64,000 nucleotides of DNA from Haloarcula hispanica ATCC 33960 (GCF_000223905.1 NC_015948.1:186001-250000), one strand, 5' to 3'. Positions 25,947 through 40,010 are shown, counted from the stretch's first letter. A program made the numbers and translations. The notes: generated by a model not told the origin, from the sequence alone.

Positions 25947-26104
25947 CGCGCTATCCTACTCCGCACTTCACCGCAGGATACACTTAAGTCTACCGTGCCG
26001 CCGGCCGCTGGCTGGTGGTTTTGTGGACGCGCGTGACGATTTCGACCCGAATATTCGGCTTGAACTGGCCGGTTTGCTGGTTTGAACCGGTACGTGATGG
26101 CTTC

Positions 26105-26155
26105 AATTTATAAAGGTACCCCCCGACGGAGGGCGGATTGGGGGGTATATTTATG
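26105..26155 (+). promoter_or_regulatory. MC1 promoter with two TATA boxes and an inverted repeat between them
   Basis: TATA candidates are TTTATAAAGG (about 26107-26116) and GTATATTTATG (26145-26154). Between them the perfect 8-bp inverted repeat TACCCCCC (26117-26124) and GGGGGGTA (26140-26147) overlaps the 5' edge of the second box. The second box would give a leader of about 20 nt to the ATG at 26195. The inverted repeat is placed like an operator. Confidence 0.5.
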
Positions 26156-26194
26156 TTCTGCCATGTGCTGAATTGGCATGGAGCGGTGAAATCC

Positions 26195-26503
26195 ATGGCA
26201 CCCGACAGTGACAAGCGCAACTTCGCACTGCGCGAAGACGGTGACGAATCGAGCGTCTTCTCGGGCGGAACACCTCGACAGGCTGCGCTGAAGGCAGCAC
26301 GTCGACTCGAGCCGGCCGACGGTGAAGATCAGGCTGACCCTGAGGAGATACGACTACGGGAGAAAGGAACCCACAAAGTCCACATCTACGAGGCGTGGGC
26401 ATGGGTCGAGGAAGCACCCGACGACAAACCCGACTGGATGCCCGGCGACATCACGAAAGGGAACGTCTCGAAGCAGGGCGTCGAACACCTAGACGAGATC
26501 TAG
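26195..26503 (+). CDS. Chromosomal protein MC1 (archaeal chromatin protein)
   Basis: 102 aa. MC1 is a small monomeric DNA-bending protein that compacts DNA in Methanosarcina and haloarchaea. The family is recognised by KRNFALREDGDESSVFSGGTPRQAALKAARR, EEIRLREKGTHKVHIYEAWAW, and KPDWMPGDITKGNVSKQGVEHL. Haloarchaeal copies, like this one, carry more acidic residues than the methanogen protein. The ATG at 26195 fits the family start (MAPDSDKRNFALRE). It lies just upstream of the rRNA promoters, transcribed in the same direction. Confidence 0.95.
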   Translation: MAPDSDKRNFALREDGDESSVFSGGTPRQAALKAARRLEPADGEDQADPEEIRLREKGTHKVHIYEAWAWVEEAPDDKPDWMPGDITKGNVSKQGVEHLDEI

Positions 26504-27043
26504 GTCGCATTCCCGACATTTTCGGTGCAACGCCCGGCCGGTAGCGGCTGCTGTAACTGTTCGTGCGCGCGCGGAGTCGACGTCTGTTTCGGCGTCCCAT
26601 TCCCGACACGCCGTACTGACCGTCTGCAGTCGTGTGCAACACTCTCCCCCGTGTAATCTTGTCCCGTAGGCGACTCCCTTCGACGGGGTTAAGTGTGGCT
26701 CACCCATCGGAATGAAATGCGAACGCGGACAGGGGCCGACGCCCCCGAACGAACGCACTCGTTCCGACGCCCTTAAGTGTAACAGGGCATTCGGAATGAA
26801 CGCGAAGGTCGCTCGCGTCGTGCGGTTCGACGCGAGCCCCATCCGATGCCCTTAAGTGTAATAGGGCACTCGGAATGAACGCGAACGACGTTCGGTCGGG
26901 GTGTTGAACCCCTGCCGACACGGACCAGGCGGGATCGACTCGCCAACGAAACTCGAAGCCTTTATGGTGGCTTCGAGACAACAATCAGGTCCGAAGAAAT
27001 GAGGATTCCACCCCTGCGGTCCGCCGTCAAGATGGGATCTGAT
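26504..27043 (+). promoter_or_regulatory. rRNA operon promoter region with serial repeated promoters
   Basis: No gene is seen here. Three promoter repeats of the form (C)TTAAGTGT...CGGAATGAA are at 26689, 26773 and 26852 (spacings 84 and 79 bp). Each has a T(T/C)CGA(C/T)G-like block about 8-10 bp upstream of the TATA. The downstream CGGAATGAACGCGAA probably covers the start site. A fourth candidate, CGAAGCCTTTATGG, is at about 26954-26967. Such tandem promoters are known for halobacterial rRNA operons and boost output. Confidence 0.85.
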
Positions 27044-27079
27044 GTTAGCCCTGATAGTTCGGTGACACTCGGTCGACGG
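27044..27079 (+). other. 16S processing stem, left strand, with bulge-helix-bulge
   Basis: Pairs with 28688-28723. From outside in: a 17-bp helix GTTAGCCCTGATAGTTC, then GGTG:CACC (4 bp) flanked by two 3-nt bulges (TAT on the right strand, ACA at 27065-27067 on the left), then CTCGGTCGACGG pairing with CCGTCGACCGGG. This is the exact archaeal bulge-helix-bulge geometry cut by EndA. Confidence 0.9.
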
Positions 27080-27107
27080 GTGTCCTCGAACACCCTTCGA
27101 TAGCGAC

Positions 27108-27159
27108 CACACCCATTATATGGGTGTGATCCCGCCTAACCCCCCGGCATTGTGCCGGG
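27108..27159 (+). other. Hairpins just upstream of the 16S 5' end
   Basis: Two local stems: CACACCCAT-TAT-ATGGGTGTG (27108-27128) and CCCGGCA-TTG-TGCCGGG (27143-27159). The second ends four nucleotides before the 16S start. They probably help fold the 5' precursor. Confidence 0.6.
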
Positions 27160-27163
27160 ATAC

Positions 27164-28635
<1,472 letters not shown>

Positions 28636-28687
28636 ACTGATCGGGATCAGGCCTCTGGCCTGACCCACCTTTCGGTGTTCGAGAACT

Positions 28688-28723
28688 CCGTCGACCGGGC
28701 ACCTATGAACTATCAGGGCTAAC
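28688..28723 (+). other. 16S processing stem, right strand, with bulge-helix-bulge
   Basis: Right partner of 27044-27079: CCGTCGACCGGG, CACC, bulge TAT (28704-28706), GAACTATCAGGGCTAAC. EndA cleavage in the two bulges would release pre-16S, which can be circularised in archaea. Confidence 0.9.
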
Positions 28724-28740
28724 AACCGTGCGGATCTGCC

Positions 28741-28812
28741 GGGCCCATAGCTCAGCGGGAGAGCGCCGCCTTTGCAAGGCGGAGGCCCTGGGTTCAAATC
28801 CCAGTGGGTCCA
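28741..28812 (+). tRNA. tRNA-Ala (anticodon TGC)
   Basis: 72 nt in the 16S-23S spacer. Acceptor GGGCCCA pairs with TGGGTCC plus discriminator A. Anticodon stem-loop CCGCC-TTTGCAA-GGCGG gives anticodon TGC. The T arm carries GGTTCAAATCC. CCA is not encoded. An alanine tRNA in this spacer is standard for Euryarchaeota. Confidence 0.98.
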
Positions 28813-28828
28813 TACGACGTGCCAGCCC

Positions 28829-28850
28829 CGAACCGTGCCCCTTAAGTGTG
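28829..28850 (+). promoter_or_regulatory. Internal spacer promoter before 23S
   Basis: CGAACCGTGCCCCTTAAGTGTGG repeats the promoter block seen three times upstream of 16S, including TTAAGTGT at 28842. Transcription from here would give extra 23S-5S transcripts. Such a spacer promoter is known in halobacterial rRNA operons. Confidence 0.75.
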
Positions 28851-28966
28851 GGACGGCGATGGGATATGGTACGACGACAGATGCACCAGGCCGGGTGAAA
28901 CCGAGCCTGGGAAGGGTCGATTCGCCCACCATCTCCACCTTGGGGGCGAATATGAAACCGTGTGTA

Positions 28967-28999
28967 CGTGCGATCCAGGCGTCCACTGGACTCGTTCAG
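28967..28999 (+). other. 23S processing stem, left strand, with bulge-helix-bulge
   Basis: CGTGCGATCCAG (28967-28978) pairs with 32004-32015; GCGT (28979-28982) pairs with GCGC (31997-32000, one G-U); bulges are CCA (28983-28985) and AAA (32001-32003); CTGGACTCGTTCAG (28986-28999) pairs with 31983-31996. Two 3-nt bulges separated by 4 bp is the EndA substrate geometry. Confidence 0.9.
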
Positions 29000-29019
29000 T
29001 TGAACGGGTCACAACGACG

Positions 29020-31941
<2,922 letters not shown>

Positions 31942-31982
31942 TCATACGCACTGTGACTCATTCACCGACGATTTACTCGTCG

Positions 31983-32015
31983 CTGAACGAGTCCAGGCGC
32001 AAACTGGATCGCACG
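31983..32015 (+). other. 23S processing stem, right strand, with bulge-helix-bulge
   Basis: Right partner of 28967-28999: CTGAACGAGTCCAG, GCGC, bulge AAA, CTGGATCGCACG. Confidence 0.9.
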
Positions 32016-32033
32016 GACAGACGGTGGACCCGA

Positions 32034-32074
32034 TCGAGACTGGTACTTTCGTGGTTCGATTCCACGACTCGACG
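32034..32074 (+). other. tRNA-like processing element upstream of 5S
   Basis: A 5-bp acceptor-like stem TCGAG (32034-32038) with CTCGA (32068-32072) encloses a perfect T-arm mimic: TCGTGG-TTCGATT-CCACGA (32049-32067), a stem with a seven-nucleotide T loop. The 5S gene starts at 32075. In Haloferax volcanii a tRNA-like element in this position is cut by RNase Z to form the 5S 5' end; the same is expected here. Confidence 0.75.
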
Positions 32075-32196
32075 TTAGGCGGCCACAGCGGTGGGGTTGC
32101 CTCCCGTACCCATCCCGAACACGGAAGATAAGCCCACCAGCGTTCCGGGGAGTACTGGAGTGCGCGAGCCTCTGGGAAACGCGGTTCGCCGCCACC
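32075..32196 (+). rRNA. rrf: 5S ribosomal RNA
   Basis: 122 nt from TTAGGCGGCCACAGCGGTGG to TTCGCCGCCACC; the two ends pair (GGCGGC with GCCGCC). The internal segments CCCATCCCGAACACGG and GGGGAGTACTGGAGTGCGCGAG are typical of archaeal 5S. Length equals Haloarcula marismortui 5S. Confidence 0.99.
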
Positions 32197-32210
32197 ATTC
32201 ATACTTACAT

Positions 32211-32255
32211 AGCCCACTCAGGAGAGGTATCTCTCCCGAGTGGGCTTTCTGTATT
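32211..32255 (+). terminator. rRNA operon terminator hairpin
   Basis: AGCCCACTC (32211-32219) pairs with GAGTGGGCT (32238-32246), and inside GGAGAG-GTAT-CTCTCC pairs completely, so the stem is 15 bp with one A-C mismatch and a tetraloop. It is followed by TTCTGTATTT. It lies 14 nt after 5S. Confidence 0.75.
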
Positions 32256-32550
32256 TGTACAAACCGAGAGCTACGTGGCTGGATCGAGAGTTCGCAGACT
32301 TGTGAAGTCGAATTGAACGAATTCACAGCACTCCTCGACGGTGTCGCACCTGCTGTCTGTCGAGATGGTCCGAGCGGATCTTGACGATGTACGGCTCGTG
32401 TATGCCGTTAATTCCGCCGCGGGTCGCACTACTTGCCAACGCGAGCAGTTTGGTTCTTTGGACGGGGACAATCATCAATCTACAGTACTATCCCGGTCGA
32501 GGGAACGGTGATCTGGATCAGGCAGAGAGTAATGGCTAATCGAATTCGCT
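32256..32550. other. Intergenic region between rRNA terminator and tRNA-Cys promoter
   Basis: About 300 bp with no convincing gene on either strand: frames are short and without haloarchaeal composition or a start with a promoter. No repeat or hairpin of note is seen. Confidence 0.5.
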
Positions 32551-32562
32551 ACGCTTAAACGA
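32551..32562 (+). promoter_or_regulatory. tRNA-Cys promoter
   Basis: ACGCTTAAACGA has its TATA core (CTTAAAC) at 32554-32560, about 26-32 nt before the mature 5' end of tRNA-Cys, showing that this tRNA can be made separately from the rRNA transcript. Confidence 0.6.
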
Positions 32563-32585
32563 CCGAGTTGACTACCTCTATTCGC

Positions 32586-32661
32586 GCCAAGGTGGCAGAG
32601 TCTGGCCTAACGCAGCGGCCTGCAGAGCCGCCCATCGCCGGTTCAAATCCGGCCCTTGGCT
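32586..32661 (+). tRNA. tRNA-Cys (anticodon GCA)
   Basis: 76 nt. Acceptor GCCAAGG pairs with CCTTGGC, discriminator T as usual for cysteine tRNA. Anticodon stem-loop GCGGC-CTGCAGA-GCCGC gives GCA. T arm CGCCGGTTCAAATCCGGC. Downstream of 5S, as in other Haloarcula rRNA operons. Confidence 0.96.
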
Positions 32662-32857
32662 TCCTCGTCTCTTACACCCCCGAGAAGTGCCGGTACGTAA
32701 CTGTTACCTGCCTTTCTCTATAGACTCGACGTTGTGAACTGTTGCTCGAAAACGGTTGCACACAGAATCAAGACTCTATCGAAGAATACAGTACGGGCAG
32801 GCCGCTCATGGAATCCGCTTTCGACGGGGCAACGCCCGACCTATCGGGGTCGCACGA

Positions 32858-33075: not shown

Positions 33076-34188
33076 ATGGGGTTGTTGGGACGGGAAATAC
33101 GGCGGACAGTCGTCGACAACTACGAACTGCTACTGATTTGTCTGATCGCCATCGCTGCGGTTGGCGGATATCTCACGTATACGGGCCACGTTGCTCCGGG
33201 AACGGACACGACTACGCGTCAGGTGTCGTCGTGGCAGTCGTCCGGATCGTTCTCCCACAATGCGACAGTTCGCAACGGTACCTCGGCGTTTCCAGAGGGT
33301 GAAGTGCTCGAAGATCAACCTGTGTATCTCCGGACGGTCGCCCCCGTATTGGACGGCGCGTTTACGTACACGTACAGCGCCAGCAACGAAAGCGACCTTA
33401 CGGCCTCGGCTGACGTGTTTGTTCAGTATCGCTCCGTCGAATCAACCCAGAACGGAGAGCTCGTCTACTGGGAGGTCAAACGACCACTGACACAAGGCAC
33501 TGTGCAGTCGCTGGCCGCGGGTGAGCGGCTGACGGTTCCGTTCTCGCTGAATGTCAGTCGCGCAGCCGAAACTGTTCGACGTATCGATTCGGAACACGGT
33601 CAGACGTCCGGTCGACTTGAGATGGCGGTGGTCTCTCAGGTGGCTCTTTCGGGGACGCGCAACGGGCAGTCGGTCGACACGACTCGGACGTATCGCCTCC
33701 CGATTATCCCGAGGCAGAGCAGCTACCGGGTCGAAAACGCTGGCCCGGTGCCGAACAGTGGTGACCGAACCGTCGAAGCGCAGGTGGAAAAAGCGTACGG
33801 ACCGATCTGGACTCTCGGTGGCCCAGTGCTCCTGCTTGGTAGCTTTAGTGGTGCTGCTGCCCTCGTCTACGGGCGCACGACCGACTATCTCACACTGACC
33901 GACGCCGAGCGCCGATGGCTCGCATACAAGTCCGCCCGTGAGGAGTTTGACGATTGGATAACCGTCGGCCGGGCTGATCCAGTCGACGACGACGTCTGGA
34001 CGACTTCAGTTGATTCGCTCGTCGGGCTCGTGGACGTCGCAATAGACACCGAGGAACGTATCATCGAGTCAGATAGCGATTCTGAACTCATCGTGTACAC
34101 TGGTGACCGACTGTTTCGGTACGCGCCTCCGCCAGAACCCGGAACTGATTCGACTGTGGGAAACAGTGACGCTGAGACACCGGACTGA
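33076..34188 (+). CDS. DUF5305-like membrane-anchored extracytoplasmic protein
   Basis: 370 aa from the ATG at 33076 (MGLLGREIRRTVVDNYELLL). An N-terminal transmembrane helix (YELLLICLIAIAAVGGYLTY) is followed by a threonine/serine-rich beta domain outside the cell (residues about 45-250, with several N-x-T/S sites), a second helix (IWTLGGPVLLLGSFSGAAALVYG) and a cytoplasmic acidic tail. This layout and the sequence HVAPGTDTTTRQVSSW match DUF5305, often next to signal peptidase genes in haloarchaea. A CTTATTTG box about 30 nt upstream favours this start over GTG 32944 or ATG 33019. Confidence 0.75.
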   Translation: MGLLGREIRRTVVDNYELLLICLIAIAAVGGYLTYTGHVAPGTDTTTRQVSSWQSSGSFSHNATVRNGTSAFPEGEVLEDQPVYLRTVAPVLDGAFTYTYSASNESDLTASADVFVQYRSVESTQNGELVYWEVKRPLTQGTVQSLAAGERLTVPFSLNVSRAAETVRRIDSEHGQTSGRLEMAVVSQVALSGTRNGQSVDTTRTYRLPIIPRQSSYRVENAGPVPNSGDRTVEAQVEKAYGPIWTLGGPVLLLGSFSGAAALVYGRTTDYLTLTDAERRWLAYKSAREEFDDWITVGRADPVDDDVWTTSVDSLVGLVDVAIDTEERIIESDSDSELIVYTGDRLFRYAPPPEPGTDSTVGNSDAETPD

Positions 34189-34198
34189 CCGGATTGTT

Positions 34199-35413
34199 TT
34201 ACTGCTTTTCGGTGCCGTCGTCGTCGGCTTGCAGTTCGGGCAGTGCATCGAGTTCTGGGACCAGCCGGTACCCGGTCACCGTGCCGACTGCAGCGGAGAA
34301 CGCGAGCGCCGCAACCAGCTGCGAGACTGGGCCGAAGCCAGCGCCTGAGGCAGCTGCCACGACAAGAACCGTGAGTACGATTCCGGCAAGACCGATCGCG
34401 GTCTCGCGGACAGCGACGCGCCGGAACCGGCGACGGCGGTCACTCGGTTGCGTCTGGAGTACCGGGAGGACATCGTGATATCGCGTCTGCACGAGGTAGT
34501 TCGTCACTACGGCGAGCAGGCCAGCGATGAACGCCCACGGCCCCCAGCTAATTCCGAATGCCGGCTCGAAGCCGAGCGTGAATCCGTTCGGTTCGGCTGA
34601 CTGTTGACTTTCGGGTGTCGTCGGCACGGGCTCAGCGCCACCGCCGGCCACGGTTTCGGGTTCTTCTTCGCTGGTGGTGGGCGTCTCAGCCGGTTCGTCG
34701 GTCGACGTCCCGACACCAGTACCGCTGCCACCGCTTCCGCCGCCAGCGGCTGTTTCAGTCTCGTTCCCGTCATCGTTTACGGTCTCGTTCGTCGAGTTAC
34801 TGTCCGTCGGCGTTGGCGTCGGCGTCGTGGGATCGCCCCCGCCCTGCGTACCACTCCCATCATCGTTACTGGGTGGCACACCGCCACCACCGCCACCGGT
34901 TGACCCACCGCCGCTCCCACCGTTGCTCTCGTCCCCTTCGGTTGACTGCTGTTCGGGAACAGGGGCGGTGATCGATATCGTGCCAGTGAAGTTGCGCTCC
35001 GCTGGCGTCACTGCCAGCCCAAAGCGCACTGATTCGTCGGGCTCCAGCGAGACAGTGTCGCCGGCGACTTGTGCTCCGGTGTCCATCCGGTACATGCGAA
35101 CTGTTTCCGGCTCGCTGTCCAGTTCGACGGTAGCGGCACTATCAGTCCCCTCGTAGCCCGCAAACCCGACGACGAACAGGTCATCGACGCGGGTCTGACC
35201 GTTCGGGAGCACTGGTGAAAGACTGATGCGTAGCTGCCCTGTCTCGTCGTATTCGACGTACTGGTCCCCGTTTACCGTGTCAGCGGGAGCCAAGTAGACG
35301 CCGGAGTTCCGGTCGGGTGCAACCTCGTCGCCGTCGATGAAGGCACCTGTTGCCATAGCGGTCCCTGCGAGGAGGACGACCGCTGCCATGACAGCGATGA
35401 GAGTGCGATTCAT
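34199..35413 (-). CDS. Secreted/membrane protein with Ser-Gly-Thr linker, putative fibre anchor
   Basis: 404 aa. An N-terminal signal (LIAVMAAVVLLAGTAMATGAF) leads to a beta-type domain (residues about 30-155), then a long low-complexity linker rich in Gly, Ser, Thr, Pro and Glu (about 156-270), then three hydrophobic segments at the C-terminus (WAFIAGLLAVVTNYLV, IGLAGIVLTVLVVAAASG, VAALAFSAAVGTVTG). The ...ATGAF junction after the signal resembles the GSGAF junction of its DUF1102-type neighbours. It may anchor or organise a surface structure. It faces the DUF5305 gene with a 10-bp gap. Confidence 0.7.
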   Translation of the reverse strand: MNRTLIAVMAAVVLLAGTAMATGAFIDGDEVAPDRNSGVYLAPADTVNGDQYVEYDETGQLRISLSPVLPNGQTRVDDLFVVGFAGYEGTDSAATVELDSEPETVRMYRMDTGAQVAGDTVSLEPDESVRFGLAVTPAERNFTGTISITAPVPEQQSTEGDESNGGSGGGSTGGGGGGVPPSNDDGSGTQGGGDPTTPTPTPTDSNSTNETVNDDGNETETAAGGGSGGSGTGVGTSTDEPAETPTTSEEEPETVAGGGAEPVPTTPESQQSAEPNGFTLGFEPAFGISWGPWAFIAGLLAVVTNYLVQTRYHDVLPVLQTQPSDRRRRFRRVAVRETAIGLAGIVLTVLVVAAASGAGFGPVSQLVAALAFSAAVGTVTGYRLVPELDALPELQADDDGTEKQ

Positions 35414-35505
35414 AGTTGGTTGTGTCGTGCCGACTGCGTTGGATCTTCGTGTGTGCCTGTATCTGGGCCTGTTGGTCGGCGGCCAGCGCCGGAATCGCGT
35501 TTCAC

Positions 35506-36075
35506 TTACTGCTGGACCGCCTCGACGACGAAGGTCACGTCGCTGATCTCGCTGAGATCGTCGCCATCGACGCCGTCATCTCGGAGGTCGACAACGATGT
35601 CCAGTTCCACGGTGTCGCTGTAGCCGCCGTCTGAACTCCCGCCGTCGGGGTCGAGCGTGATAGCCTGGTCCGAGCCGACAATCGAGACGCCAGCGGACCC
35701 CTCCCGGAAGTCCAGAACTTCACCGTTTGTGGGGTCATCCCCAACCCCGGTAGTGCTGTCATCAATATAGAGGTTGACCTTGGATTGGCTGTTGTTGTCG
35801 ACCTCCAAAGCGTTCTCGAAGCTGGTCTTCGCTTGTTCGTTGAGATTCGTCTGTTCGAAGTTGATGATATCAACCGACTCGTTTGTGTCCGTCCCGACGA
35901 TGCTCGTGGCACCGCTCCCCGGGCTGAACCCCACCTGTGCCGATCCGGTATCGCCGGTGACTTCGAGATTGACGTTCCGGTCTGCTTCGATAGAGGTGAA
36001 CGCACCGGATCCAAACACCGCACCCGTCCCCACACTGGCTGCACCAATACTAAGGAGAAAGCCACGCCGATTCAT
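35506..36075 (-). CDS. DUF1102-type secreted protein 1 (SipW/TasA-like candidate)
   Basis: 189 aa. The N-terminus MNRRGFLLSIGAASVGTGAV has a twin-arginine-like RR-x-F-L and a hydrophobic core, followed by FGSGAFTSIEADRNVNLEV, the junction common in DUF1102 proteins. The mature part is acidic and beta-rich and ends DVTFVVEAVQQ. DUF1102-like proteins resemble the TasA/camelysin group whose signals are cut by SipW-type peptidases, and such a peptidase is encoded at 38690-39835. Assignment to a fibre subunit is inference. Divergent from the paralogue at 36197. Confidence 0.75.
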   Translation of the reverse strand: MNRRGFLLSIGAASVGTGAVFGSGAFTSIEADRNVNLEVTGDTGSAQVGFSPGSGATSIVGTDTNESVDIINFEQTNLNEQAKTSFENALEVDNNSQSKVNLYIDDSTTGVGDDPTNGEVLDFREGSAGVSIVGSDQAITLDPDGGSSDGGYSDTVELDIVVDLRDDGVDGDDLSEISDVTFVVEAVQQ

Positions 36076-36196
36076 TGGAAGCTAGTTCACGGCATAGCGG
36101 CTTAGTACTGAACAGCGTTAGCGGCTTCAATGAGTGCTTTAGCCGGGCTAATGCAACAAAATAGTAAGTGGTACCCTCTCGATAAGCGAACTGAAC
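36076..36196. promoter_or_regulatory. Divergent promoter region of the two DUF1102-type genes
   Basis: 121 bp serve both genes. On the minus strand GTACTAAGCC lies about 28 nt from the ATG at 36075; on the plus strand AAAATAGTAAG lies about 30 nt from the ATG at 36197. Joint regulation is possible. Confidence 0.4.
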
Positions 36197-36823
36197 ATGA
36201 AACTGAACCGTAGAAGCGTACTCGGTCTCATCGGGACAGTCGGTATCGGATCTGGCGCGGCGTTCGGCTCTGGTGCATTTAGCACTGTCAGCGCAACGCG
36301 TGAAGTCGAAGTCAACGTCGTTGGCGCTGACGGCAACGGCTCCGAGATCGCAACCGAATTTACTGACGTGCTTGTCGACGCGTCCGCCGATGAGGTTGCG
36401 CTTCGGAATAGCAACGACGATCTCGTTACCGACGCTACGACCCTGTTTCCGAAGAGTTCTGACTCTCTTACTACCGACGGCGCCACGACTGTTTCGACCG
36501 ACTACGTAAGCCTCATCGCGAACGACGTATCTGTCGTCTTTGGATACGAGGACGGTGGAACCGACGAACGGCTGATGCCAAACAGTACGTACGACTATGA
36601 AAGTGGGTTCTTCAAACTGGTCAACAACGACGACGGAAACTCGACGGCGTTCAACGTTGAGCTGAGTACCGGCAGCGGCCTTCTTTCCGATATCAACGGG
36701 AGCGGCGATACCCACAGCGAAGAGGTGTCTGCGGGCGGGGTTTCTGACCTCTCTGCAACCCTCGAAACGGGCGACAGCGCCCAGGAAACCGAAGACCTGA
36801 CAATCACAATCACTGAAGTATAA
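36197..36823 (+). CDS. DUF1102-type secreted protein 2 (SipW/TasA-like candidate)
   Basis: 208 aa. Start MKLNRRSVLGLIGTVGIGSG with Arg-Arg and a hydrophobic core, then AFGSGAFSTVSATREVEVNVV, the same junction as protein 1. The mature domain is acidic with many Asn-x-Ser/Thr sites and ends in the strand DLTITITEV. It is probably a paralogue of the divergent gene and a second surface subunit. Confidence 0.75.
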   Translation: MKLNRRSVLGLIGTVGIGSGAAFGSGAFSTVSATREVEVNVVGADGNGSEIATEFTDVLVDASADEVALRNSNDDLVTDATTLFPKSSDSLTTDGATTVSTDYVSLIANDVSVVFGYEDGGTDERLMPNSTYDYESGFFKLVNNDDGNSTAFNVELSTGSGLLSDINGSGDTHSEEVSAGGVSDLSATLETGDSAQETEDLTITITEV

Positions 36824-36984
36824 CGGGTTGGCTCTGCTGTTCGACTCCTTCATCTATCCATGCCCTGCTGCCGGCAGACGCCTGTCCCTGGCGGTGGATA
36901 TCTAGCGTAGAAAACACATTTACTTACCATTTACAATCAAATACGAACAAAAAATCTATCAAGTAGTGCAGTCTAAACAGAAAC
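36824..36984 (+). promoter_or_regulatory. AT-rich promoter region of the HTH-LamG operon
   Basis: Bases 36910-36980 are strikingly AT-rich for this genome (TTTACTTACC, TTTACAATCAAATACG, AAAAAATC). Several TATA-like boxes are possible; none can be singled out. The first part holds no gene. Confidence 0.35.
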
Positions 36985-37545
36985 ATGGGACAGGTGGGGG
37001 TTAGCCGGCCAGAAGAGCGACAGCTATCGCGTGATGACGTATACGACATACTGAGCAACCAACGGCGCCGGTACGCTTTACACGCGATAAAACAGGAGGA
37101 CGAGTGCGCCGAACTCTCTGACCTTGCCGAGCAAGTCGCTGCGTGGGAAAACGACAAGTGCATTCAGGAGATCACGTCCACGGAGCGACACCGCGTGTAC
37201 ACGTCAATGCAGCAGACACACCTCCCGACACTTGAACGCGCGGGCGTCATCACGCACGACAACGGGACAGTTACGATGACCGATACAGCTGACAGCCTTG
37301 ACGTGTATCTTGATGTCGTCCCGGGGGATTCGATTCCGTGGGCGGAGTACTATCTCGGACTCGCCGCTGTTTCGTTAGCGCTCGTCGTCGCTGTCTGGGT
37401 CGGTGTCTTTCCACCGTCGGTTCCGTCGCTCGTGTGGCCGACGGTCATCACGCTGTTGTTTCTCGTCTCTGCGGCGTACCACGTCACGGAGACTCGCCGG
37501 CTGCAACTCGGCGCAGCCGATAAGCCACCGGAGTTGTCGGAATGA
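36985..37545 (+). CDS. Membrane-anchored HTH regulator, DUF7344-like
   Basis: 186 aa. The N-terminal winged-helix part (LSRDDVYDILSNQRRRYALHAI, then ELSDLAEQVAAWEND, and a wing near HDNGTVTMTDTAD) matches the haloarchaeal DUF7344 pattern. Two C-terminal hydrophobic segments (YYLGLAAVSLALVVAVWVGV and VWPTVITLLFLVSAAYHV) anchor it in the membrane. It overlaps the LamG gene by 4 bp (ATGA), so the two form an operon; it may control the surface-protein genes around it. Confidence 0.8.
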   Translation: MGQVGVSRPEERQLSRDDVYDILSNQRRRYALHAIKQEDECAELSDLAEQVAAWENDKCIQEITSTERHRVYTSMQQTHLPTLERAGVITHDNGTVTMTDTADSLDVYLDVVPGDSIPWAEYYLGLAAVSLALVVAVWVGVFPPSVPSLVWPTVITLLFLVSAAYHVTETRRLQLGAADKPPELSE

Positions 37546-38681
37546 ACAAGAAGTGGACCCGACGTGGTGCACTCGCGTTCATCGCCAGCGGTGCAGGACT
37601 GCTCGCTGCCGAAACAGCCGGTGTCACTACCATCGACGCAAAGCGGTCCAGTAACCTGAAAGCGACCGACGGCAGCGATGCACTGCTTGGTATCGACATC
37701 GGCCCAGTCAGTGGAATGGACGGCCAGCAAGTGACACTGCTAACGCTCACCAACAACTTCGACCAGCAACTTACGAGTGTTCGTGTCAGCCCCGGTCCCG
37801 CTCCACCGTTCGAAACTGTCCAGACGCCGAACAGGCTTCTGCCGGGCGAGAGCGGCGATGTCACAACGACGCTCGCCTGTGACTCAGAAGGGAGTACCAC
37901 TGTCAACCTTGATATCACTGCTACCGGCGACGACCAGCGTATCGAACTGAGCCGATCGGTTTCAGTCGAGTGTCGCGACCCCAGGGTGTCGTGGTGGCAC
38001 TTCGAAGATGTTAGCAGAACGGATATCCCGGATTCCTGGGCCGCTGGCAACGATGGCGAACGGGAGTTTAGTTTTGACAGGGACCGCGACCGCTTTTATG
38101 AACCAGACCTAGCGACATCCAGTCAGGGCCGCGGCGAAGTGCTCGATTTCGATGGTGACGATGCTGTCACCGTTCCTGACGACGATTCCCTTGACCTGAC
38201 TGACGACTTCTCGCTCTCTGCCTGGGTATTCCCTCGAATCCAAGGCGGCCTCACACGACTGTTCAGCAAATGGGACTCCAGTGGCGACGATAGCTATCAG
38301 TTCGGCTTCGGTGGTGGCTGGAAGGGTTCGGACGACAGAGAACTGCTCATCGAGACCACCGACGATAACAAACTCACGGGTGTTTCGCTGACGAAGAACC
38401 AATGGGCACACGTCGTGTGGACCCACGGATCACAGGACAAGGTGTACGTCAACGGGACGCAAAAGGGGCCGACGTTTTCGCTCCCCGATGCGCAGGCGTC
38501 CGAACAACCGCTTCGAATCGGTACAGGACTCAATTCTGGCGGGAACGCTATCTATGGATTCGACGGTGCCATGGACGAACCCAAGGTGTACGACGCCGCG
38601 CTCACCGCCGAGCAGGTGAGCAATCTCTACAATTCAAGCACGGCAAGCGCAGGTGGTGGCGGCGGCGATATCACCGGCTGA
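37542..38681 (+). CDS. Secreted LamG/concanavalin-like protein with Tat-type signal
   Basis: 379 aa. Signal MNKKWTRRGALAFIASGAG has the Thr-Arg-Arg-x-x-Leu start of haloarchaeal Tat substrates, then LLAAETAGVTTIDAKRSSNLKA. Residues about 40-145 look like a TasA-like/Ig beta domain (LLGIDIGPVSGMDGQQVTLLTLTN). From about 150 a LamG fold follows: EVLDFDGDDAVTVPDDDSLDL, FSLSAWVFP, TKNQWAHVVWTHG, and FDGAMDEPKVYDAALTAEQV. It ends in a Gly-rich tail. Probably a carbohydrate- or surface-binding partner of the fibre-like proteins. Confidence 0.8.
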   Translation: MNKKWTRRGALAFIASGAGLLAAETAGVTTIDAKRSSNLKATDGSDALLGIDIGPVSGMDGQQVTLLTLTNNFDQQLTSVRVSPGPAPPFETVQTPNRLLPGESGDVTTTLACDSEGSTTVNLDITATGDDQRIELSRSVSVECRDPRVSWWHFEDVSRTDIPDSWAAGNDGEREFSFDRDRDRFYEPDLATSSQGRGEVLDFDGDDAVTVPDDDSLDLTDDFSLSAWVFPRIQGGLTRLFSKWDSSGDDSYQFGFGGGWKGSDDRELLIETTDDNKLTGVSLTKNQWAHVVWTHGSQDKVYVNGTQKGPTFSLPDAQASEQPLRIGTGLNSGGNAIYGFDGAMDEPKVYDAALTAEQVSNLYNSSTASAGGGGGDITG

Positions 38682-38689
38682 ACCCGCGA

Positions 38690-39835
38690 TCATTCACGCC
38701 CAAGCAGGCGGCGTACCTGTCGCTTCAGCGGGACCGACCGGTCCCGGCTCCGCTCGCGCGTTGTTCCGAACCCGAAGGTCGCCCCAACTGCCGCTGTGAG
38801 GCTTCCTAACACCAGGAGATTGAACGCCCCGATTGCCACCAGCGGGTGGACTCGGTGCAGTCCCGCGATGACGCCCGGCGGTGCTAACAGGAAGTACCGG
38901 TGCTCTTCGACGGTCACGACCGCCTGTTCGCCCGGTGGTGGGGCGGGCACCGACAGCGTTGCCGTCGCGGACCCGCCGCGCTGGACGACAAGCCGGTTAC
39001 GGTCCATCGCCGCGTCCGGGTGCGACGATTCGAGGATGATGAGCATCGTTACCAGTCCGCCGTTTTCGGCAGTGAACTCGCTTTCGACGGTCTCCCCGGG
39101 CGTGACATCCTCGCTGGTGCTGTCGATGGTGACGCTGTGAGTGCCGCTCGGAGCGACCATCGCCGCGTTGGCTGGGACGAGAATCAACACTGCCAGTGCG
39201 AGTATAACCGTCCAGCCATTGATGGCGTCCCCATCGCGCGAACGAGTCCGTTCTCTGGTCCGCTCCTCGCTGGCCCGGAAGCTGTCGACGAAGACGAGTA
39301 GAAACAGCCCGAGCCCGATAGAGATGAACAGTCCACTGAGGCCCTGCCCGCTCGTCAGGTCGCTGTTGCCCGGCCCGCCAATCAATACCAAGCCGCTTTC
39401 TGCCGCCGTTCGAGCGGAGCTGATGGCGGTGCCGAGACCGGGGAGTCGGACGACCTGTCCGTTGATCTGGAGTGCTGTCGCGACGACTCGGTCGTCCGTG
39501 ACAACCGGCTCACCTCCGCTCTGGTCTCTGAAGGGGTTGTTGTCCCCTTTCGTGATGTAGCCGCCGTCGGTCTCCGCGACGACCCGGTGTGTCGTCAGTC
39601 CGCCGCCCTGTAGCTCGACCGCTTCGAACACGATGACGTCCCCCGGCTCAATCTCGCCAGCGACGGGTGCAGGAACGGCGACGAACGCGTCGCCCGTGTT
39701 CAGCGTCGGCGACATACTCCCTGAGGTCACGTACCCCAGCAGGATCGGCTGCCCGAGGAGTTGCCCGATAACGAGGGAGAGAACGACGAGGACAGCAAGC
39801 AGGGTGAACGCGTCCTCGACGGCCTGCCGCAGCAT
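38690..39835 (-). CDS. Signal peptidase I, SipW/ER type (S26B), with C-terminal membrane domain
   Basis: 381 aa. The first helix (LLAVLVVLSLVIGQLLG) precedes the catalytic Ser in VTSGSMSPTLNTGD and the His of TTHRVVAETDGGYITKGDNN. Ser-His instead of Ser-Lys is the ER/SipW/archaeal type. After about residue 160 there are extra helices and a second extracytoplasmic beta domain (SVTIDSTSEDVTPGETVESEF), making it nearly twice the usual length. Its position next to DUF1102-type proteins parallels the sipW-tasA pairing of Bacillus. Confidence 0.9.
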   Translation of the reverse strand: MLRQAVEDAFTLLAVLVVLSLVIGQLLGQPILLGYVTSGSMSPTLNTGDAFVAVPAPVAGEIEPGDVIVFEAVELQGGGLTTHRVVAETDGGYITKGDNNPFRDQSGGEPVVTDDRVVATALQINGQVVRLPGLGTAISSARTAAESGLVLIGGPGNSDLTSGQGLSGLFISIGLGLFLLVFVDSFRASEERTRERTRSRDGDAINGWTVILALAVLILVPANAAMVAPSGTHSVTIDSTSEDVTPGETVESEFTAENGGLVTMLIILESSHPDAAMDRNRLVVQRGGSATATLSVPAPPPGEQAVVTVEEHRYFLLAPPGVIAGLHRVHPLVAIGAFNLLVLGSLTAAVGATFGFGTTRERSRDRSVPLKRQVRRLLGRE

Positions 39836-40010
39836 ACCTGCAGTAGCCGGTCACTGGTTTTCAACCCTCCGAACAGCGGAGCAGTCGACGCAGTCGCTCA
39901 TTATCCGAAGCGTACGAAATCGGCGCATGTGGTCTCTGCGCGCGACGCACTGTCGTATGGCGACCGCGTGGCAGGCCAGTTCTGGTCGACCATATCACTG
40001 ACCGTCTCGA

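Follow-up and report, generated by a model that had tools for sequence, protein, structure and literature searches.

Which surface structure is encoded by the seven clustered genes at positions 33076–39835 of a 64,000-nucleotide stretch of the Haloarcula hispanica ATCC 33960 genome (NC_015948.1:186001-250000; hereafter, the window), and how might its subunits be processed and assembled? An initial annotation, made from the sequence alone, listed a pair of DUF1102 proteins, a SipW-type peptidase, DUF5305 and LamG proteins, and a regulator, and read the set as a surface-fibre locus paralleling sipW-tasA of Bacillus. All seven open reading frames (ORFs) are present and intact, and TafA, TafC, TafE, and TafF each exceed the curated cut-off of an NCBIfam family in a profile search of the window proteins. 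The fibre reading is further borne out by the match of a predicted TafE model to a solved Tafi pilus. With a probability of roughly 90%, we identify the locus as the tafi locus (fimbriae exported by twin-arginine translocation, Tat) of H. hispanica, working as modelled below.

The Tat-fimbriae system is already known: Taf families have been curated, one structure is solved, and a paper appeared in 2025. Such fimbriae were reportedly described in H. hispanica by Galeva and colleagues in that year. Their work on tafi (Galeva et al. 2025, iScience 28:111793, doi 10.1016/j.isci.2025.111793) is cited in a passage of PMC12687288, in which tafi are thin Tat-exported appendages with TafA as the core component. 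The window locus shares with that system the same protein families, above curated cut-offs, and the Tat signals. Tafi are a recently described archaeal appendage, for which no resolved assembly machinery turned up in the literature looked at.

Family assignments and export signals

Family calls were made with Pfam and NCBIfam models at their curated cut-offs (Table 1). The LamG domain of TafC occupies residues 204–360 (Pfam, E 8.6e-23), and the start of tafC overlaps the 3′ end of the helix-turn-helix (HTH) regulator gene by four bases; a DUF7344 HTH regulator was found in most of the taf-like loci compared. DUF1102 was rejected as the family of TafA and TafE, since no window protein matches PF06510 even at E ≤ 1; one of 19 TafE relatives matches Pfam DUF1102 weakly (E 0.0044).

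By motif, a conserved twin-arginine signal is predicted at the start of TafA and TafE (NRR) and of TafC (TRR). TafA and TafE have FGSGAF in common, followed by a conserved A-x-R segment, and both N-R-R and GSGAF are invariant across 12 TafA homologues. The initial annotation had pointed to GSGAF as shared by two secreted proteins, and this proved specific to the pair: GGNWSNGGNGCNTTY has 19 genome-wide DNA matches, of which only those in TafA and TafE stand at a signal-peptide junction of that type, two further matches being lipoprotein-like CGAF. TafF carries a signal of the general secretory (Sec) type that ends in a TGAF junction, and the mature N-terminus of TafC aligns with the TafE profile at 94.7% over 26 columns (hhalign).

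Table 1. Features of the tafi locus, in window coordinates.
Feature	Position	Strand	Family evidence and remarks
DUF5305 membrane protein	33076..34188	+	PF17231 151 bits, cut-off 29; N-terminal transmembrane (TM) segment, outer domain, cytoplasmic tail
TafF	34199..35413	-	NF052523 581.7 bits, cut-off 420; anchored pilin-like protein
TafE, Tat-exported pilin or adapter	35506..36075	-	NF052522 224.6 bits, cut-off 155; GSGA/F junction
Divergent tafE/tafA promoter region (putative)	36076..36196	no strand	Half-sites recurring across genera
TafA, major fimbrial subunit by family name	36197..36823	+	NF052520 250.6 bits, cut-off 190; Tat signal, GSGA/F junction
Membrane-bound HTH regulator	36985..37545	+	PF24035 (DUF7344) 94.9 bits, cut-off 27.8; two TM segments
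TafC, Tat-exported LamG protein, candidate tip adhesin	37542..38681	+	NF052521 567.6 bits, cut-off 410
Long SipW-type/archaeal signal peptidase	38690..39835	-	TIGR02228 67 bits, cut-off 51.85

Structural comparison of the pilin-like proteins

The entry 9p0a ('Structure of Natrinema sp. J7-2 Tafi pilus', released 2025-07-23) is the best match of the predicted TafE model (Foldseek 8.8e-5; Z 9.0, root-mean-square deviation 3.0, 126 residues aligned). Although it comes from another genus, its subunit is homologous to those of the window and has the same signal and junction, the latter in the form GTGAF; over the mature domain it is TafE-like and not TafA-like. The TafE alignment profile matches it at 2.5e-32 over 1–151, and the TafA profile at 3.3e-16 over the N-terminal part 1–71 only. 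Of the 215 residues of the precursor sequence, 188 are modelled, the last being residue 215; a continuous chain would therefore begin its ordered part at F28. This is the Phe of GTGAF, an arithmetic result that fits cleavage before or beside that residue.

The next matches of the TafE model are other archaeal filaments, with scores no higher than those that unrelated sandwich proteins reach. Second in Foldseek stands the AbpA bundling pilus of Pyrobaculum calidifontis (7ueg), likewise a beta-sandwich pilin, with Z 7.0 over 120 residues and 11% identity; third is a Sulfolobus thread, with Z 6.3. The initial comparison with TasA-like archaeal bundling pili thus stands as far as the rank of 7ueg, whereas its Z score equals those of unrelated sandwiches. 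As a check, comparison of the predicted folds with TasA and AbpA had been suggested. This led for TafE to the Tafi pilus and for TafA to background only, and Bacillus TasA is not among the structural matches listed for either model, which excludes nothing.

The outer domain of TafF is a relative of TafE placed on a membrane anchor. Its predicted layout comprises a TafE-like outer domain (about 30–155), a Gly/Ser/Thr linker, and a C-terminal TM anchor (about 285–367). Without signal peptides, its mature N-domain aligns with mature TafE at 91–95% (hhalign, E 1e-6 to 1.6e-8, 100–110 columns). From this alignment and the TM segments, TafF resembles a pilin domain that a flexible linker joins to membrane segments at the C-terminus, which suggests an anchoring point for the fibre. 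Read from the alignment, TafF has about seven residues fewer than TafE from the junction Phe to the start of the core's first strand; thus, TafF may accept a strand but not donate one. In the same profile comparison, TafA scores 31–41% against TafE and TafF, which is neither clear nor absent, and the domains of the peptidase, DUF5305, and LamG show no similarity to any other tested domain (all <3%). A pilin-like domain in the long peptidase, considered as a candidate, is unsupported, its extra domain scoring <3% against TafE, TafF, and DUF5305.

The long signal peptidase and its relation to SipW

The peptidase has a catalytic half (1–150), TM segments near 9, 165, 210, and 332, and an extracellular domain at about 228–322. 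The Ser-His, SipW-type peptidase with an extra C-terminal half of the initial annotation was recovered in part: in 11 homologues, Ser40 and His83 never vary, nor do Asp98 and Asp104, and the additional half is present. However, the Bacillus SipW model (NF046067) gives only 41.6 bits, far below its cut-off of 190, so that the enzyme is best described as a SipW-related signal peptidase of the archaeal type. It is the sole TIGR02228 member above cut-off in the genome, in which two other, separate signal-peptidase-like ORFs match that model weakly.

Could the locus nevertheless be a sipW-tasA operon in the narrow sense, in which Sec-secreted TasA/camelysin proteins are cut by SipW and form mainly a biofilm matrix rather than fimbriae? 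The weak SipW similarity, the aromatic residue that follows the junction as in TasA, and the second rank of the TasA-like Pyrobaculum pilus would agree with this. The subunit signals, however, are of the Tat type, the SipW equivalog cut-off is far from reached, no window protein matched the TasA/camelysin families in Pfam or NCBIfam, and Tat dependence is already reported, by citation, in the passage of PMC12687288 mentioned above. We therefore consider a matrix operon of this kind very unlikely.

Co-occurrence of the peptidase with DUF5305

Co-occurrence was analysed in 116 Halobacteria genomes, as the initial annotation had proposed, and the expected association is strong. Both DUF5305 and the long peptidase are present in 87 genomes and neither in 24; five have DUF5305 only and none the peptidase only. 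DUF5305 lies within 12 kb of 113 of the 122 long peptidases and within 3 kb of 99, and the copy numbers of the two are equal in 79 of the 87 genomes. In haloarchaea, DUF5305 thus forms a near-obligate pair with the long SipW-type peptidase, and by this almost one-to-one pairing a widespread, uncharacterised family gains a definite role that can be tested. TafA-like proteins and the long peptidase are both found in 84 genomes and both missing from 27 (Fisher 8e-21, a value that overstates independence because the genomes are related).

TafA proper is more restricted, exceeding its cut-off in 12 of the 116 genomes, including all eight of the same genus, and TafE-like genes are the more widespread, multi-copy type. 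DUF5305 is nearby at 19 of the 20 peptidase loci that are far from any listed TafA match, and most of these 20 also hold TafE-, TafC- or TafF-like genes and an HTH regulator. This gene content indicates that the core of the wider system consists of the peptidase, DUF5305, and TafE-like proteins.

Two genomes of the Haloarcula group deserve separate mention. One (G055) has a second locus (L102 7210-11890) with a long peptidase, DUF5305, an HTH regulator, and a TafE-like gene but no TafA, which suggests a second fibre type. The other (G120) is without any long peptidase and retains only a broken DUF5305 remnant (C39:410322-410894), which fits the loss of DUF5305 along with the system.

Exchange of the cassette within Haloarcula

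At a single site, Haloarcula carries two versions of the locus, I (that of the window) and II, the latter in half of the loci compared (window 34199–39960 against L044-L047, L087, L090, and L091); examples of version II are H. vallismortis, H. argentinensis, and H. sebkhae. The flanking genes of the two versions share about 90% protein identity (74–97% gene by gene). In version II, DNA similarity to the window is mostly gone from about 34760, inside tafF, to about 39960, just past the peptidase gene, with weak stretches of 66–79% surviving in the regulator, the end of tafC, and the peptidase. The break is mirrored in TafF, whose membrane part is 76–79% identical across versions and whose outer domain is about 40% identical. 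TafA of the window is 38–47% identical to that of version II, a distance comparable to that from Halorubrum; for Haloferax the value is 69%. These comparisons show that the taf genes were replaced as one block exchanged between species, the breaks lying inside tafF and just beyond the peptidase gene.

Version II carries a DUF5305 of its own, with about 30% identity to that of the window. Outside the cassette, the original DUF5305 gene has stayed intact in all six version I genomes. In none of the six with version II is this so: the gene has a broken frame or an internal deletion, persists as a remnant, or was not found. Neither set of six consists of independent genomes, and for one of the version II genomes the contig stops close to the site, which makes the absence there less certain. 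Such damage or loss with version II is the pattern expected if DUF5305 serves only its own cassette. Block replacement and the loss of the orphaned DUF5305 show which of the genes work as a unit, and they suggest that haloarchaea diversify in their surface fibres.

These results also bear on whether the genes are mere neighbours without a common system, the peptidase and DUF5305 serving general secretion. Several separate transcription units lie within the 7 kb, and nine of the 122 peptidases have no DUF5305 nearby, as such a view would allow. Against it stand the strong co-occurrence and co-location of the peptidase, DUF5305, and TafA-like genes, the replacement of the set as a block, and the two separate, weakly matching signal-peptidase-like ORFs elsewhere in the genome. 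Chance neighbourhood is accordingly extremely improbable.

The divergent promoter

tafE and tafA share a putative divergent promoter, conserved and roughly symmetric, in the 121 bases between them. Two similar half-sites point outward (36101–36122 and 36147–36168), each with a TATA-like box, and the sites contain GCGTTAGC ... GCTAATGC. The word GCRTTAGC is found in the half-sites of Haloarcula version I and of Haloferax, and similar sites are found in Halorubrum; the version II promoter has a different word, GCCTGAG/GCTTGAG, in the same position. Taken in the window alone, the inverted repeat is not significant, since 39 of 60 shuffles reach its score, and per-locus significance is mixed; therefore, it is recurrence across loci that supports the repeat.

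Several Halorubrum-type promoters have an extra central inverted repeat between tafE and tafA that is not present in the window, for example TTCAGGGTGTGCCTGAA in L084; it was seen in L049-L051, L084, L085, L089, L094, and L096.

Proposed assembly and comparison with other fibres

From the sequences, we infer an order of assembly together with cleavage by the long peptidase and a function for DUF5305. TafA, TafE, and TafC would fold in the cytoplasm, leave by the Tat pathway, and stay membrane-held by their signal peptides. The long peptidase and its partner DUF5305 would then cut the GSGA/F junction and free the N-terminal strand, which could complete the beta-sandwich of a neighbouring subunit by donor-strand complementation; homology shows the relation in fold to a solved Tafi pilus, and the exchange step is proposed. 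Growth would thus proceed as in TasA, the Pyrobaculum bundling pili, and the Sulfolobus threads. TafF, with its shortened N-terminal segment, would be an acceptor-only base, TafE an adapter, TafA the shaft, and TafC, with a donor strand and a lectin-type LamG domain, a donor-only tip adhesin. The divergent promoter is the probable target of the membrane-bound DUF7344 regulator.

Several points weigh against this account. The cleavage of Taf proteins by the peptidase and the role of DUF5305 are predictions. For the TafA model alone, none of the beta-sandwich matches rose above background (best Foldseek E 6e-3); its best VIA match was Enterococcus WxLIP (Z 7.2), and 7ueg scored Z 5.2, level with unrelated rows. 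For this reason, TafE was used for the structure comparison. The predicted models are middling, with a mean confidence score (pLDDT) of 69 for TafA and 65.5 for TafE, and the N-terminal strand falls below 50, which places donor-strand exchange beyond what single-chain models show. Finally, the Natrinema pilin is nearer to the 'adapter' TafE than to TafA over the mature domain; thus, subunit roles and major-minor naming may differ between genera. The last point, with the wider distribution and multiple copies of TafE-like genes, raises the question of whether TafE forms the main shaft and TafA is a specialised subunit. The curated family names, fimbrial protein for TafA and adapter for TafE, and the naming of TafA as core component in the cited passage of PMC12687288 speak against this, and we regard it as unlikely, retaining TafA as the probable shaft.

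Donor-strand assembly has been demonstrated for TasA (PMC9674648) and for Sulfolobus threads (PMC9715654). The TasA/TapA/SipW system of Bacillus subtilis (PMC9674648, PMC10269814) also has a dedicated archaeal-like signal peptidase and a Phe just after the cleavage site, and its fibre grows by an N-terminal donor strand, a feature that the window locus would share in the proposed model. It differs in Sec export and in its protein families. To our knowledge, it has no equivalents of TafC, TafF or DUF5305. The Sulfolobus acidocaldarius thread Saci_0406 (7pnb; PMC9715654) is a donor-strand filament with a cap protein that lacks an acceptor groove, which parallels the proposed tip role of TafC; unlike the window locus, it uses Sec export and the general signal peptidase and has no comparable gene cluster.

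The DUF5305–peptidase pairing, TafF as an anchored pilin-like subunit, and the block exchange of the cassette may be new. In a broader proposal, the peptidase and DUF5305 would together be the platform on which Tat-exported donor-strand fibres are processed and assembled throughout the haloarchaea, a dedicated one that takes the place of an usher or sortase; cleavage would trigger polymerisation, and whole cassettes, including their own peptidase, DUF5305, and operator, would be exchanged between species. We offer this as a tentative extension, possible but with the odds against it.

Region upstream of the locus

Directly upstream of the taf locus, window positions 26000–32700 form a low-GC (guanine plus cytosine) stretch that includes tRNA-Ala (28741) and tRNA-Cys (32586); its composition and the order of its genes mark it as a ribosomal RNA operon.

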